Below, piece by piece: positions 4,877-28,830 of a stretch of 64,000 bases of DNA (position 1 is its first letter; every line of letters starts with the position of its first letter). Under the pieces are notes generated by a model. That model worked only from the letters and a program-made list of their open reading frames with translations, ran no database searches and was not told the origin of the DNA. This DNA is from Dehalococcoidia bacterium. Lineage in GTDB: Bacteria; Chloroflexota; Dehalococcoidia; Lucifugimonadales; UBA3495. The stretch covers positions 1 through 64,000 of the forward strand of contig JAJDTP010000009.1 in the NCBI GenBank assembly GCA_022827095.1, read 5' to 3'. Made by a program: the position numbers and the translations under genes.

Positions 4877-5049
4877 CTGAGGACCTCGGCGGTAGGACGG
4901 ATTGCATCCAATTCGAGCAGCGTCGCCATCTTTTCGCTGGTCATTTCGTAGCGGATTTCGTACTGGCGCAGTTTTCCCTCAACCTCAGTCAGCATGGTGC
5001 CGGTCGGCACATGGCGAACCGTGATGCTCGTTTTCCCGGTAGTTGACAT
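4777..5049 (-). CDS. putative antitoxin partner of the TumE-like gene
   Basis: A 90-residue protein upstream of the TumE-like gene. The middle part (KLRQYEIRYEMTSEKMATLL, then TAEVLRWYSSY) matches the general form of small antitoxins found next to DUF6516 genes: a coiled helix with Y-x-M-S/T-S-E followed by E-x-L-x-W. ATG 5049 has a purine-rich GAAAGGGGG site upstream. The last 20 residues are Thr/Pro/Gly-rich and lie over the toxin frame, so they may be poorly constrained. The two genes are probably co-transcribed and translationally coupled. Confidence 0.55.
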   Translation of the reverse strand: MSTTGKTSITVRHVPTGTMLTEVEGKLRQYEIRYEMTSEKMATLLELDAIRPTAEVLRWYSSYQGALSLRKKTPTTGTPGTTTEPSTNSG

Positions 5050-5171
5050 GGCTTGCCCCCTTTCCTGCCCGATTCATTGTATCCGATGGTCAATAGTCGT
5101 CAACGGACGGCAAGCGATTTGGAGGCTACCGAGTTGCGAACTGCGACGGGCGGGCGTTTCCTCTCCGGGGT

Positions 5172-5597
5172 TTAGCAGGGGGCGGGGGCAAGGTTGGGAA
5201 CCTCGCTGAAGAATCGCTCCGCGAGCATGTCAAGATTTTTGGTTTCGCATTCCCAGACGGTAATGACGTGCCAACCGAGGTCGCGTAGTTGACCGTGCTG
5301 CCGTATATCGCGATCGACATTTTCGTCGAACTTGGCTTGCCAGAAGGCGACGTTGCTCTTGGGAGTGTATGCGAACCGGCAACCGGGGTGGCGGTGCCAG
5401 TAGCAACCATGTACCAAAACGACCGTCCGCCGGCCAGGCAGGACGATGTCTGGTCGTCCCGGCAAATCTCTCCGATGCAGGCGGAATCGGTAGCCCATCC
5501 TGTGTAGCAGAGAACGAACCAACCGCTCCGGCTTGGTGTTTCCGCTTCGGATGCGGGACATATTCCAGCTGCGATGCTCAGGAGTCAGGCTGTCCAT
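5172..5597 (-). CDS. vsr: very short patch repair (Vsr) endonuclease
   Basis: Nicks next to T:G mismatches that arise when 5-methylcytosine deaminates, starting short-patch repair. The N-terminus, MDSLTPEHRSWNMSRIRSGN, is the classic Vsr start. The catalytic Asp is in GRPDIVLPGRRTVVLVHGCY and the zinc-binding residues are in GCYWHRHPGC. The length, 141 residues, is normal. It overlaps the end of the cytosine methylase gene by 20 bases and is the last gene of the five-gene operon. Vsr usually accompanies the methylase whose deamination products it repairs. Confidence 0.93.
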   Translation of the reverse strand: MDSLTPEHRSWNMSRIRSGNTKPERLVRSLLHRMGYRFRLHRRDLPGRPDIVLPGRRTVVLVHGCYWHRHPGCRFAYTPKSNVAFWQAKFDENVDRDIRQHGQLRDLGWHVITVWECETKNLDMLAERFFSEVPNLAPAPC

Positions 5598-24698: not shown

Positions 24699-25751
24699 TT
24701 AACCCTCGACCGCCCGAATGATGCGGTCGACGTTTTCCGGGCCGGGCGCTACGGTCTTGCTGTCGACAAGGCGCATGGCCTCAACGATGGCGTCATGGTA
24801 GGGCGTGGCGACTCCGGTTTCGCGGCCCTTCTCGCAGATCAGGCCGTTCATGAAATCGACCTCGGACTTGCGTCCCTTGTGCACGTCCTGGGCCATGGAG
24901 GCCAGCCAGTTCACGCGTCCGCCGGACTGGGACAGCTTCCCATCCAGCTCCTCGAACACGTCACCAGTGTCGGCATCCGCCCAGAACTCCGCGGGCGTGC
25001 CGTTGATCTCCACTACCTTGAGCCCCTGGGCCAGGCCGACCTGAGCGCCCTCCTTGGCCAAGTTGATGCGGATGCGGCGTATCCTGGCATCGCCGGCCAT
25101 TTCCTGGCTGCCCAGTTGGCTCATGGCAGAGATGGCGTTGCCCATGCCGTTCTGGCACAGCTTGGCCCAGCGTTCGCCGGGCAGGTTGTCGGTGGCGTAG
25201 GCCGCGTCGATGTGGTCCAGCTTGGCAGCCAGCGCCTCGGAACGCGGGGTGAGGGCTCCGGTGAACTCGCCGATGCGGAACACGGTGTGGCCGTGGTCCC
25301 GCCCGGGCGCGCCGCCGCGGTTCACGTGGGCCGGCTCCCAGAGGGCCACCTCGATGTGGGAGGCGATGCAGCCCAACTGCCGGTCTTCGCCAACGATGTT
25401 GGCGATGGTGGGGTCGTTCCAGCAGTTCTGGATGGACACGAACGCGCCGTCGTCCTTCACGTACCGCTTGATGAAGTGGGTCGCCCACTCGGTGTCGTAG
25501 GACTTGACGGTGATGAAGGCGTAGTCGAAGGGTTCGGTGATGTTCTGGGCGTCGGTCAGGTGCATGGCGTTGACCGGCACGGTGAAATCGCCCTGGCTGC
25601 CGCTGGCGCGCAGGCCCTCGGCGCGCATCTTTTCCACGTGCTCGGGCCACATGTCGATGAAGGTGATGTCGTCCTCGCCGGCCTGAACGAGAAACGCGCC
25701 GACGTAGCTGCCCACGGCGCCGGGGCCCATTATTACGATGCGGTCTGCCAT
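24699..25751 (-). CDS. ketopantoate reductase family protein
   Basis: A 350-residue ApbA/PanE-type reductase. It opens with IVIMGPGAVGSYVGAFLVQAG, a G-x-G-x-x-G NADPH-binding motif, and has the family's C-terminal all-helical domain (WAKLCQNGMGNAISAMSQLG; catalytic Lys region). Real PanE proteins are about 300 residues; this one is longer, and paralogues of this type in Chloroflexi act on unknown 2-oxo acids. No other pantothenate gene is adjacent, so panE itself is not assigned. Confidence 0.8.
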   Translation of the reverse strand: MADRIVIMGPGAVGSYVGAFLVQAGEDDITFIDMWPEHVEKMRAEGLRASGSQGDFTVPVNAMHLTDAQNITEPFDYAFITVKSYDTEWATHFIKRYVKDDGAFVSIQNCWNDPTIANIVGEDRQLGCIASHIEVALWEPAHVNRGGAPGRDHGHTVFRIGEFTGALTPRSEALAAKLDHIDAAYATDNLPGERWAKLCQNGMGNAISAMSQLGSQEMAGDARIRRIRINLAKEGAQVGLAQGLKVVEINGTPAEFWADADTGDVFEELDGKLSQSGGRVNWLASMAQDVHKGRKSEVDFMNGLICEKGRETGVATPYHDAIVEAMRLVDSKTVAPGPENVDRIIRAVEG

Positions 25752-25795
25752 AGTGTCATCTCCGGGATGGTTTGGGGTTTTGTGAATGCCGGGGG

Positions 25796-26287
25796 TTAGC
25801 GTTCGGTTGGCGGCGGGAAATACTCTTGCAGCAGGTCGATGCCGTCGCTGACCGTGCCCGCCGATTGGATGACCACGGCATCGGTCAGGTCGCCTTCGTA
25901 AAAATGGGTGTTCAGGCTGTGGACCAACGCGGTTGCATTATTCAGCGCGATTTCCGCATCCGGGTCTAATTGCCCCACTAGGGAAGCTAATTCGCCGGCT
26001 ACCCGGTAGATCCCAACGTGACGGGACAGTTTTATCTGATGGTCAGCGCCGATGGCCTTGACGATTTGCGTGAAAGCGCCCCAGGATTTTTCGGCTGTTT
26101 GCAGATAATCGCTTTCGTCCAGACTGCGCTGAACGTGCTTGCGGTAATGGTCCAGGTTGGCGCGGTAGGTTGCCGCCTGGGCCGCCGCGTCTTCCGCAGA
26201 CAGCAACGTGTCCCAGCGCGGGGAAAAGGCGGCGCGGATAGCAGCAACGACTTGTTCGCTGGTGAAAGATGGTGGCGCGTTGCTCAT
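25796..26287 (-). CDS. PaREP1-like protein, tandem copy 2
   Basis: 163 residues, a close paralogue of the next gene. The central block SDYLQTAEKSWGAFTQIVKAIG followed by IKLSRH resembles PaREP1/HEPN-type domains, which have a small four-helix fold and the pattern D-Y-x-Q-x-x-E-K-x-W-G. It overlaps the upstream paralogue by ATGA. The function is unknown; HEPN domains are often RNases or RNA-binding, and the pair lies downstream of the Ro gene, but no active-site R-x4-6-H is clear. Confidence 0.6.
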   Translation of the reverse strand: MSNAPPSFTSEQVVAAIRAAFSPRWDTLLSAEDAAAQAATYRANLDHYRKHVQRSLDESDYLQTAEKSWGAFTQIVKAIGADHQIKLSRHVGIYRVAGELASLVGQLDPDAEIALNNATALVHSLNTHFYEGDLTDAVVIQSAGTVSDGIDLLQEYFPPPTER

Positions 26288-26790
26288 AACGTTGCTCCAT
26301 CATCACTTGGTTGATGCGGGAACCAGTCCTGCAATAGATCAATAGCCTCGCTCACCGTAGTGGCGGACTGGGTGACTCGATCATCCGGCAGTTCATTTTC
26401 GTAGAAATGCAGATGCAGACTGTGGGCCATAACCGACGCATCGCTCACCCTGCCGCCGGCTTCAGGGGCGGTTTGGGCGATCAACTTTGCCAGTTCGCCG
26501 GCCACGCGCATAATCCCGATATGACTGGACAGTTTTATCTGGTGGTCGGCGCCGATAGCTTTGACGATTTGCGTGAAAGCGCCCCAGGATTTTTCGGCGA
26601 CTTGCAGATAATCGCTTTCGTTCAGACTGCGCCGAACGTGTTGCCGGTAATGCGCCAAGTTCTCGCGGTAGGTTTCCGCATGGACCGCCGCATCTTCCCG
26701 GGACAACGACGTGTCCCACCGGGGGGAAAAGGCGGCGCGGATTGCAGCAACGACCTGCTCATCAGTGAAGGTCGGCTGTGGCGCGTTCAC
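26284..26790 (-). CDS. PaREP1-like protein, tandem copy 1
   Basis: 168 residues, tandem partner of the gene at 25796-26287. Identical stretches such as EKSWGAFTQIVKAIGADHQI and VVAAIRAAFSPRWDT show a recent duplication, while the C-terminal halves have diverged. Co-translation by ATGA overlap suggests a heterodimer or simple dosage. It follows the Ro/TROVE gene on the same strand with a 102-base gap containing a hairpin at 26823-26846. Confidence 0.6.
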   Translation of the reverse strand: MNAPQPTFTDEQVVAAIRAAFSPRWDTSLSREDAAVHAETYRENLAHYRQHVRRSLNESDYLQVAEKSWGAFTQIVKAIGADHQIKLSSHIGIMRVAGELAKLIAQTAPEAGGRVSDASVMAHSLHLHFYENELPDDRVTQSATTVSEAIDLLQDWFPHQPSDDGATL

Positions 26791-26822
26791 GGCATGGTCT
26801 CCGGACGGTTGCGGGAAGGCAA

Positions 26823-26846
26823 CGCCCCTGCATTTTTACAGGGGCG
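26823..26846 (-). terminator. CGCCCCTG hairpin between Ro and PaREP1-like genes
   Basis: A perfect 8-base-pair stem (CGCCCCTG/CAGGGGCG) with an 8-base A/T-rich loop. It lies 46 bases after the Ro stop on the minus strand and could end that transcript, although no T-run follows. Its core matches the GGGGCG hairpin family in this window. Confidence 0.5.
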
Positions 26847-26892
26847 GAGCGGATTTGTCCATTCCCGGCCGTCGGCAAACTCCTCTGCGCGG

Positions 26893-28548
26893 CTACGAGT
26901 TGACGAAGTCGGCGATAACCTGCGGCACGGAGGCGTCAAAACCCACCACGTCCAGCATCCCGGCGTCCTTGGGGTCGGCGATGCTGAACTCGGTGGCCGT
27001 CATGGCAACGACTACCATTTTGGCAGGAATGCCCGTCTTGTCGCGGTACTGGCGCAGCGCTTCCGCGGGATGGATGCGCCCGGCCCAGGTTTCGTTGTCG
27101 GTAATGATGACGAAGCAGCCCACCGGGATATCCTTCGCCGTGGCGTCCAGCATAGGCAGGGCGCAGTCGGTGCCGCCCCAGGGCAGGTGGTCCGTCTTGC
27201 GCAGCGCGTCGGCGAGGCTGTCCGTGGCGGCGATGTGCAGCGGCATCATTTCGTAGTCGGCATGACGGTGAGAACCGAAAAAACGATTGGCGATGGCCGC
27301 GCCGTTGGCGTCGGCGAAGGCGGCCATATAGTAATTACTCTCGCGTCGGGCGATTGCCATGGCCATGGCGGCGGCTCCCATGCGCGGCGTCAGTCCCTCG
27401 ACGCCGGCGATGGAGCCCCCGGACATGGAACCGGACACGTCAATGCCCAGGTAGAACCGCCGGCCGGTTTGTGGCGCAAAGGCGAAGGACTTATCGAAGG
27501 CTGAATCCAGCGCGTCCACCACCGTCGGCACGGGAGTCCAGGTGTTGCGTCCCCTGACGCCTCGGCCGGACTTGTAGGTAGTCAGGGCGGACAGGATGGC
27601 GATGGGGTGGATCCGCGCCGCCCGCAGCCCATCGGCGTCGTTCAACCTGGCGGCAACTTGACCGGCGGCGTCGGACATCGGGGCAACGATGCCGAGGCGG
27701 GTTAGCGTGGCCAGGTTCCTCAGCATGGCCGTCAGGGGCATCTTTTCGAACAGGGCTTCCCAAATTACCTTTTCGCCCATGACCTCGCCGGGAATCATCT
27801 CCCAGGTCATGTCAAATTCGCGGATGGCATCGGCAATCAGGACTGGATCGCTCACGTGCCCCAGAACGGATTCGTAAGCGCGGATTATGTCATAACGGCG
27901 GTCATCCTCCGGTGGCGCACTGCCCTGCGTTACCCAGGCGTACAGGGCGTCAAAGTCGGGATTGTCCTTGCCCGACGGGTGAGCCTTGCGGAGCAGGTCA
28001 CGGTGAGTCCAGCCGTTGCGCTGGCGGTATTTGACCATTTGGTAAGCGGCCGGCGCGACTCCGCCCTGGGCCTCGTACCAGGTGCCGATGGCCCGTCGCA
28101 GACCCTTGCCCCAGCCGCGCATAGCGTCGGCGTACTCTACGAAGCGGAACAGGTGGCTGCCGGTGCGGGCGACTTGGGGCAGGACGGACAGCGCGTGGCG
28201 GCGAACGTCGTCGTCGCCGAAGGACGCTGCCATGGCCAGCACGAAGAGGGGTGGGCCATTCCTGGGCGCGACGCCCCGGCTGGCGCGGGTAGCCTCGTCG
28301 ATGACCCGGTGGCCGTCGATTTCGATGCACCGCTTGACGGTATTGGCGTTCTCGACGGTCAGCTTACGCTCTGCCGCATAGTAGCTGCCGCCCTCCGAGC
28401 CGAGAACCAGGAAACGGCGCAGGCGCGTAAAGTCGTCTACGGGAAAGGCCATGCCGCCGGCGGAGTTTTGGACCATCTCGCCCTCGCGTCCGGGCAGAGG
28501 CTCCGACTGCGGGGCAGGAGCGCCGTACACTTGGGTCAGATAGACCAT
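26893..28548 (-). CDS. rsr: TROVE-vWA Ro60-like RNA-binding protein (Rsr)
   Basis: A 551-residue orthologue of the Ro autoantigen. The TROVE part covers about residues 20-360, with the family start VYGAPAPQSEPLPGREGEMV and FTRLRRFLVLGSEGGSYY. The vWA domain follows, with the metal-ion motif D-x-S-x-S in YLGIDVSGSMSGGS and Thr/Asp residues later. Ro binds misfolded RNAs and Y RNAs; in Deinococcus it works with PNPase. GGAGGAGG lies before ATG 28548. The gene is preceded on the same strand by a candidate Y RNA. Confidence 0.92.
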   Translation of the reverse strand: MVYLTQVYGAPAPQSEPLPGREGEMVQNSAGGMAFPVDDFTRLRRFLVLGSEGGSYYAAERKLTVENANTVKRCIEIDGHRVIDEATRASRGVAPRNGPPLFVLAMAASFGDDDVRRHALSVLPQVARTGSHLFRFVEYADAMRGWGKGLRRAIGTWYEAQGGVAPAAYQMVKYRQRNGWTHRDLLRKAHPSGKDNPDFDALYAWVTQGSAPPEDDRRYDIIRAYESVLGHVSDPVLIADAIREFDMTWEMIPGEVMGEKVIWEALFEKMPLTAMLRNLATLTRLGIVAPMSDAAGQVAARLNDADGLRAARIHPIAILSALTTYKSGRGVRGRNTWTPVPTVVDALDSAFDKSFAFAPQTGRRFYLGIDVSGSMSGGSIAGVEGLTPRMGAAAMAMAIARRESNYYMAAFADANGAAIANRFFGSHRHADYEMMPLHIAATDSLADALRKTDHLPWGGTDCALPMLDATAKDIPVGCFVIITDNETWAGRIHPAEALRQYRDKTGIPAKMVVVAMTATEFSIADPKDAGMLDVVGFDASVPQVIADFVNS

Positions 28549-28569
28549 GATGTCCTCCTCCGTGAAGTG

Positions 28570-28595
28570 AAAATAGAGCCGAGGTCATCGGCTCT
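28570..28595 (-). terminator. terminator-like hairpin in the Ro leader
   Basis: On the minus strand AGAGCCGA-TGACC-TCGGCTCT, a perfect 8-base-pair stem, is followed by ATTTTC. It lies just upstream of the Ro Shine-Dalgarno sequence, so most transcripts from the Y RNA promoter would stop before Ro, or readthrough may be regulated. Confidence 0.6.
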
Positions 28596-28607
28596 GGGTG
28601 TTGCGGG

Positions 28608-28656
28608 TAAGAAACGCCGGTGGGAGGCCGCCGAGTTGGCAACTTTCCACCGGCGT
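28608..28656 (-). terminator. hairpin after the candidate Y RNA
   Basis: Perfect 10-base inverted repeat ACGCCGGTGG/CCACCGGCGT with a 23-base loop, followed by TTCTTA on the minus strand. It starts 16 bases after the closing stem of the Y RNA candidate and may define the primary 3' end. Confidence 0.5.
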
Positions 28657-28671
28657 TGGCTCACCGGGGTT

Positions 28672-28804
28672 CGCACGGATAAGAGGCGCCGACAGGAGCT
28701 CCGAAGCATAGAGCCCCGGGGTAGGACTTGAACCTACTCAGCAGAAATCTGCCTTATACCGATAACCCGCCAGCTTCGACCCGTGCGGTACGGCGAAACG
28801 CCGT
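28672..28804 (-). ncRNA. candidate Y RNA with tRNA-like module (YrlA type)
   Basis: Upstream of rsr on the same strand. Read on the minus strand it has a 5' hairpin CGGCG-TTT-CGCCG (28803-28791), then a closing stem CGCACGG (28787-28781) that pairs perfectly with CCGTGCG (28678-28672). An inner stem CGAAGC (28778-28773) pairs with GCTTCG (28707-28702). The core carries a D-arm-like GGGTTATCGGTA, a short GCAGATTTCTGC hairpin, and a perfect T arm GTAGG-TTCAAGT-CCTAC (28737-28721). The 5' strand GGTCGAAGC resembles the Ro-binding helix of Y RNAs. No usable anticodon loop or acceptor/CCA end exists, so this is not a tRNA. A degenerate tRNA relic is the alternative. Confidence 0.75.
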
Positions 28805-28810
28805 GTATCC

Positions 28811-28819
28811 ATTGTATCA
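28811..28819 (-). promoter_or_regulatory. extended -10 promoter for the Y RNA candidate
   Basis: Minus-strand TG-A-TACAAT is an extended -10 element. Initiation about seven bases downstream would fall at 28804-28805, just before the first hairpin of the RNA. It lies between the serA stop and the RNA, so the RNA need not depend on serA transcription. Confidence 0.5.
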
Positions 28820-28830
28820 GAGCTCGCCGG

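Follow-up and report, generated by a model that had tools for sequence, protein, structure and literature searches.

A probable Y RNA with a permuted tRNA-like module beside the Ro60 gene of a Dehalococcoidia bacterium

Introduction

The stretch of DNA analyzed here (the window; 64,000 nucleotides of contig JAJDTP010000009.1, Dehalococcoidia bacterium assembly GCA_022827095.1) carries a gene for Rsr, the ortholog of the RNA-handling protein Ro60 that is also present in animals, and, upstream of this gene, a short region that folds into a closed stem structure enclosing a tRNA-like T arm. What is this RNA, and what could it do for the protein encoded next to it? The first-pass annotation of the window proposed a Y RNA that carries a tRNA-like module, in a lineage for which few such RNAs are described. 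Here the structure of the RNA, its relatives at other rsr loci, its resemblance to known families and its presence or absence in related genomes are used to weigh that proposal against a strict YrlA RNA, a cis-acting leader of rsr and a decayed tRNA gene.

Results

The rsr gene and its relatives

The Ro60/Rsr assignment of the first-pass annotation is borne out by matches to both domains of the family, and the RNA is indeed upstream of and co-oriented with this gene, which is the only rsr in the genome (Table 1). The nearest solved structures to the window Rsr are those of D. radiodurans Rsr (2NVO, 1.4e-109) and Xenopus Ro60 (1YVP). Alignment with these solved relatives reveals conservation of the residues aligned to Xenopus K170, R174 and H187, which we take to be RNA-binding residues. 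A PNPase gene is found in the same genome. Next after rsr come two tandem PaREP1-family genes (25796-26790, minus strand), whose family name comes from archaea. The distribution of rsr is sporadic, with 2 of 60 near relatives carrying the gene, and the TROVE family occurs in 1 of 393 genomes of the class and 17 of 400 genomes of the phylum. Loci with related Rsr proteins were collected from a genome of the same family (L033, rsr 57% identical), other Chloroflexota (L003, L034-L038, L068), Nocardia (L004, L005), Nonomuraea (L058) and actinophages (L050, L051, L053, L054, L059).

Table 1 Features of the Y RNA and rsr locus (positions in the window)
Feature	Position	Strand	Evidence
Y RNA + rsr cassette	26866..28829	-	absent between serA and PaREP1-like gene in same-genus genomes; ends approximate
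rsr (Ro60 ortholog, 551 aa)	26893..28548	-	Pfam vWA_Ro60 2e-56, TROVE 9e-40
Terminator-like hairpin, then AUUUU	28575..28595	-	terminator scan, 0.3 expected by chance
Large hairpin between rsr and Y RNA	28613..28657	-	fold
Probable Y RNA, ~117 nt: Ro-binding double stem + permuted tRNA-like effector module	28672..28788	-	independent covariance model; fold
Stem 1, 3' strand AUCCGUGCG	28672..28680	-	covariation in 36 units
Stem 2, 3' strand CCUGUCGG	28689..28696	-	fold + covariation
Closed acceptor-like hairpin CCGGGGC-UCUAU-GCUUCGG, no D arm after	28701..28719	-	fold; equivalents in L033, L034, L004, L036
T arm GUAGG-UUCAAGU-CCUAC	28721..28737	-	fold; compensatory changes
Small hairpin GGCAG-AUUU-CUGCU, at tRNA variable-arm place	28740..28753	-	fold; missing in closest relative
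GGUUAUC signature	28761..28767	-	UUA invariant in 36 bacterial units; position = UUAUC of nematode sbRNAs
Stem 2, 5' strand CUGGCGGG	28766..28773	-	compensatory changes in 5/6 counted stem-2 pairs
CGAAG, internal-loop side of Ro-binding module	28774..28778	-	CG invariant in 36 units
Stem 1, 5' strand CGCACGGGU	28779..28787	-	compensatory changes in 8/8 counted stem-1 pairs, 36 units
Perfect 15-nt hairpin ACGGCGUUUCGCCGU, directly 5' of Y RNA	28790..28804	-	sequence only
Extended -10-like TGATACAAT, possible promoter	28811..28819	-	motif alone

Anatomy of the window RNA

The 5' half of the RNA runs from stem 1 through CGAAG, stem 2, UUAUC and GGUAUAA to the small hairpin and GA, and the 3' half runs from the T arm through a single C, the acceptor-like hairpin, AGCU, the returning strand of stem 2 and CGCCUCUU to the returning strand of stem 1. 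The tRNA-like part is thus circularly permuted, such that the variable arm is followed by the T arm and a closed acceptor without a D arm; the Ro stem occupies the place of the tRNA anticodon stem, and the acceptor end is sealed by a loop. With only four nucleotides (AGCU) between the acceptor-like hairpin and stem 2, a D arm would not fit. The calculated fold energy of -51.5 kcal/mol compares with -42.0 kcal/mol for shuffled sequences (123 nt, z -2.5), and a 241-nt stretch is also more stable than its shuffles (z -4.5).

Several elements had been recognized in the first-pass annotation, including the outer stem (CGCACGG/CCGTGCG) and the T arm with its loop TTCAAGT, and both are retained here. 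The inner stem proposed at the same time (CGAAGC/GCTTCG) does not occur in the minimum-energy fold, in which CUGGCGGG and CCUGUCGG form the true inner stem and GCUUCG closes the acceptor-like hairpin; moreover, neither of the closest D-less relatives (L033 and L034) has a GCUUCG partner. A piece likened to a D arm (GGGTTATC / GGGUUAUC) is instead the conserved Y RNA signature, and the tiny hairpin described as replacing the anticodon arm does exist, at the site of the variable arm.

The closest unit of the same design (L033 6357-6454) reads CGGGACGGGUCGAAGCUGGUGGGUUACU-GUGGUUUG-T arm (GCGAG UUCGAAU CUCGU)-hairpin (ACGCCC CACG GGGCGU). It shares the Ro module with compensated pairs, the T arm and the acceptor-length hairpin, and has neither a D arm nor a variable-arm hairpin. 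Equivalent units are present in L034, L004 and L003 and, by model search, in L036 and L038. A GG lies at most 6 nt after UUANN in eight D-less units versus 2 of 20 D-bearing ones, a difference examined by a Fisher test and to be read as a pattern noticed post hoc, counted by eye and including two units found by a model that was itself built with GG-bearing units. Deinococcus-like D-less units have no GG after UUANN. As a lead, this GG may take over the T-loop docking role of the D-loop guanines.

The Anaerolineae MAG locus L003:2291-5560 was observed to hold about ten Y RNA-like units flanking rsr on both sides, mostly with permuted tRNA-like modules. In one of these (4974-5105), the insert is an almost whole tRNA in non-permuted order that includes an anticodon arm and scores 36.8 bits with the Rfam tRNA model. 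Another (L003:5275-5485) has a long non-tRNA insert containing TCTATAACGTCCCTAAGGTA, which brings to mind a conserved 23S rRNA segment. This likeness was rejected as not significant for the unit at 5285, with 19 of 30 matches to the segment, shuffles reaching 20, and no Rfam match.

Comparison with known RNA families

How does the window RNA relate to described families? Rfam returned no match in the Y RNA region at gathering thresholds, and the models of YrlA (RF02553), whose use the first-pass annotation had suggested, and of the Deinococcus Y RNA (RF01053) found no match in the window up to E 10. YrlA, known from Salmonella and other bacteria, resembles the window RNA in that its ends pair as a Ro-binding stem and its T arm is followed by a closed acceptor hairpin, and further units at the related loci are YrlA-like, scoring 40-51 bits. 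One alternative is therefore that the window RNA is a strict YrlA, which would mimic a whole tRNA, D, T and acceptor arms included. We consider this unlikely, since the YrlA model stays silent, the AGCU spacer excludes the D arm that distinguishes YrlA from the window RNA, and the closest relative is D-less as well.

The Deinococcus radiodurans Y RNA, like the window RNA, is encoded beside rsr, and it tethers Rsr to PNPase in RYPER (PMC4726728; PMC8394870). The window RNA differs from it in the closed acceptor-like hairpin after the T arm and in the missing RF01053 match. The Chloroflexota unit L037 2562-2680, which combines the YCG-GGUUAUC module of the series with a T arm and a variable-arm-like hairpin and shows no evident D arm, matches the Deinococcus model with 61.9 bits, and this match links the series to the PNPase-tethering RNA. 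If "independent" is taken to mean that the window RNA has no kinship with known Y RNAs, the term is therefore wrong.

The best Rfam match of the window RNA is RF01656, the family of nematode stem-bulge RNAs (sbRNAs), which are homologues of Y RNAs, at 32.6 bits (E 1.3e-4 genome-wide; next E 0.45), a score below the gathering score of 38 and hence short of the membership threshold. The same model gave 37.4 bits (E 7.8e-6) for the L034 unit, also under the gathering score of 38, and found two L033 units (E 1e-3 and 6e-3); these were the best places of their genomes. Across three same-genus genomes without rsr, the best E was 0.13 or worse. The consensus of the nematode sbRNAs resembles the window RNA in having CG, 13 nt and UUAUC, and over the first 28 nt the alignment needs no gaps. 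In nematode sbRNAs, the loop opens at its 5' end with a conserved UUAUC (PMC4450293), which vertebrate Y RNAs also contain (PMC4726728); in the window RNA, UUAUC likewise lies at the 5' end of the loop after the upper stem (28761-28765). Metazoan Y RNAs differ from the window RNA in having no tRNA-like module, and a 2015 review held that bacterial Y RNAs are not homologous to vertebrate ones (PMC4726728, citing Perreault 2007).

Flanking elements

The first-pass annotation placed an extended -10 element just upstream of the RNA and two terminator-like hairpins just downstream. The -10-like element is present, and a scan for sigma-70 promoters near the Y RNA passed no -10/-35 pair; the element, a possible promoter, suggests that the Y RNA may be expressed. 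Both hairpins are likewise present, and only the one nearer rsr passed the terminator scan. The position of the RNA immediately 5' of rsr, with two hairpins in between, would also suit a cis-acting attenuator whose structure and terminators set Ro production with no free Y RNA. This seems to us very unlikely, as the same-family relative has its Y units downstream of rsr, the Anaerolineae locus has them on both sides, and a single weak terminator-like site is available. With Y RNA position relative to rsr varying in this way, upstream attenuation was discarded as a conserved trait.

Evidence from relatives

A sequence-only signature, [CU]CG-N9/10-GG-UUA[UCA][CU] (in short YCG-N9/10-GG-UUA), was defined with no pairing criterion. 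Within 1.6 kb of rsr, it occurs 59 times on the strand of rsr versus twice on the opposite strand, and 6 times in the remaining 161 kb. The 5' arms chosen by this signature pair better with their own downstream region (mean 28.9) than with those of other loci (21.0, sd 4.6). A looser form, GGGYCG-N9-GGUUANC, was rejected as a genome-wide marker, with about one chance match per genome; it is specific only near rsr.

The alignment across relatives that the first-pass annotation had put forward as a check was made with 36 distinct Ro-binding modules. Compensatory changes are seen in 13 of 14 pairs, amounting to 130 cells versus 38 in shuffles, and the covariation score is 0.778 compared with 0.265 after shuffling and 0.08-0.19 with slid partners. 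In these modules 95.8% of cells are paired versus 70.8% when shuffled, a percentage that is inflated because the units were gathered partly by complementarity; the signature-enrichment, own-versus-other-arm and covariance-model tests are free of this bias.

The covariance model was trained on five relatives with the window excluded. Its sole significant match in the 3.8-Mb genome is the window RNA (53.5 bits, E 1.7e-6; next 20.1 bits), and the genome search thus found no further Y RNA copies. At most of the loci whose Rsr proteins are close relatives, the same model also detects Y units in the neighborhood of rsr. Near distant TROVE/vWA proteins of other Chloroflexota (~22% identity; L041, L043, L044, L046-L049), it found no Y RNA, and two signature-like motifs at L044 and L049 show no pairing. 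A decayed tRNA gene or a chance fold, for which the T arm with its canonical loop would speak, is a negligible prospect given the compensatory changes and the independent model match, and neither ARAGORN nor Rfam RF00005 calls the window RNA a tRNA. The two outcomes that the first-pass annotation had named as fatal to its proposal, a lack of compensatory changes and conservation no better than that of a decayed tRNA gene, are both excluded.

A cassette at a variable site

The serA gene has the same end point in 13 same-genus genomes without rsr, with other genes after it. Two of these 13 (L077 and L080) have, within ~60 nt after serA, the promoter-like sequence and PaREP1 family gene that follow rsr in the window. 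Because serA is joined there to post-rsr sequence, the Y RNA and rsr (~1.96 kb) are present or absent together. The two move between genomes as a single cassette. The stretch after serA (24699-28829 in the window) looks variable in the genus; it may hold rsr with the Y RNA, PaREP1-like genes or other small genes, or be empty.

Discussion

The window RNA shares with bacterial Y RNAs a location beside and co-oriented with rsr, and its ends form a conserved interrupted stem with the putative Ro-binding sequence. The proposal of a Y RNA with a tRNA-like module in this lineage is strongly supported by the covariance model, the compensatory changes and the joint gain with rsr. We are therefore confident in the overall reading in which the window RNA is a Y RNA that carries a tRNA-remnant module, forms a cassette with rsr, and would bind the Rsr encoded downstream and tether it to an effector. 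The RNA adds to the known bacterial Y RNAs and places a Ro60-Y RNA pair in a lineage where such pairs are rare and sporadic, and the signature and covariance model detect Y RNAs that are missed by current Rfam models.

How might such an RNA work? Conservation and covariation suggest that the double stem, together with the CG internal loop and GGUUAUC, is the Ro-binding module to which Rsr attaches. The part between the stems is, by its fold and its relatives, a circularly permuted tRNA remnant whose tRNA-like top half would form the effector side. By analogy with Deinococcus radiodurans and Salmonella, the likeliest partner to which the RNA would tether Rsr is the exoribonuclease PNPase, and the tethered complex might steer or gate RNA decay or quality control, with structured or damaged RNA as the target. 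With its canonical UUCAA T loop, the RNA would probably be modified by T-loop enzymes such as TruB.

A wider hypothesis, which we offer tentatively and hold to be possible rather than probable, is that bacterial and animal Y RNAs have a single Ro60-binding module in common (two stems with YCG, 13 nt and UUAUC between them), whether inherited along with a Ro60-Y RNA pair that moves horizontally or held in place by very tight constraint from Ro60, and that the window RNA represents a subtype mimicking the top half of a tRNA only, in which the GG at 28759-28760, directly behind UUAUC, replaces the missing D-loop guanines. The shared module fits descent and constraint alike. That a model of a nematode family picks out this module in a bacterial genome makes the idea of a common Ro60-binding code directly testable.

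tRNA genes were also observed next to rsr at other loci: at L037:570-2550, a dense array of ~18 tRNA genes stands immediately before the Y RNAs and rsr, and tRNA genes adjoin rsr in the phages Sparky (L054) and GMA2 (L059).
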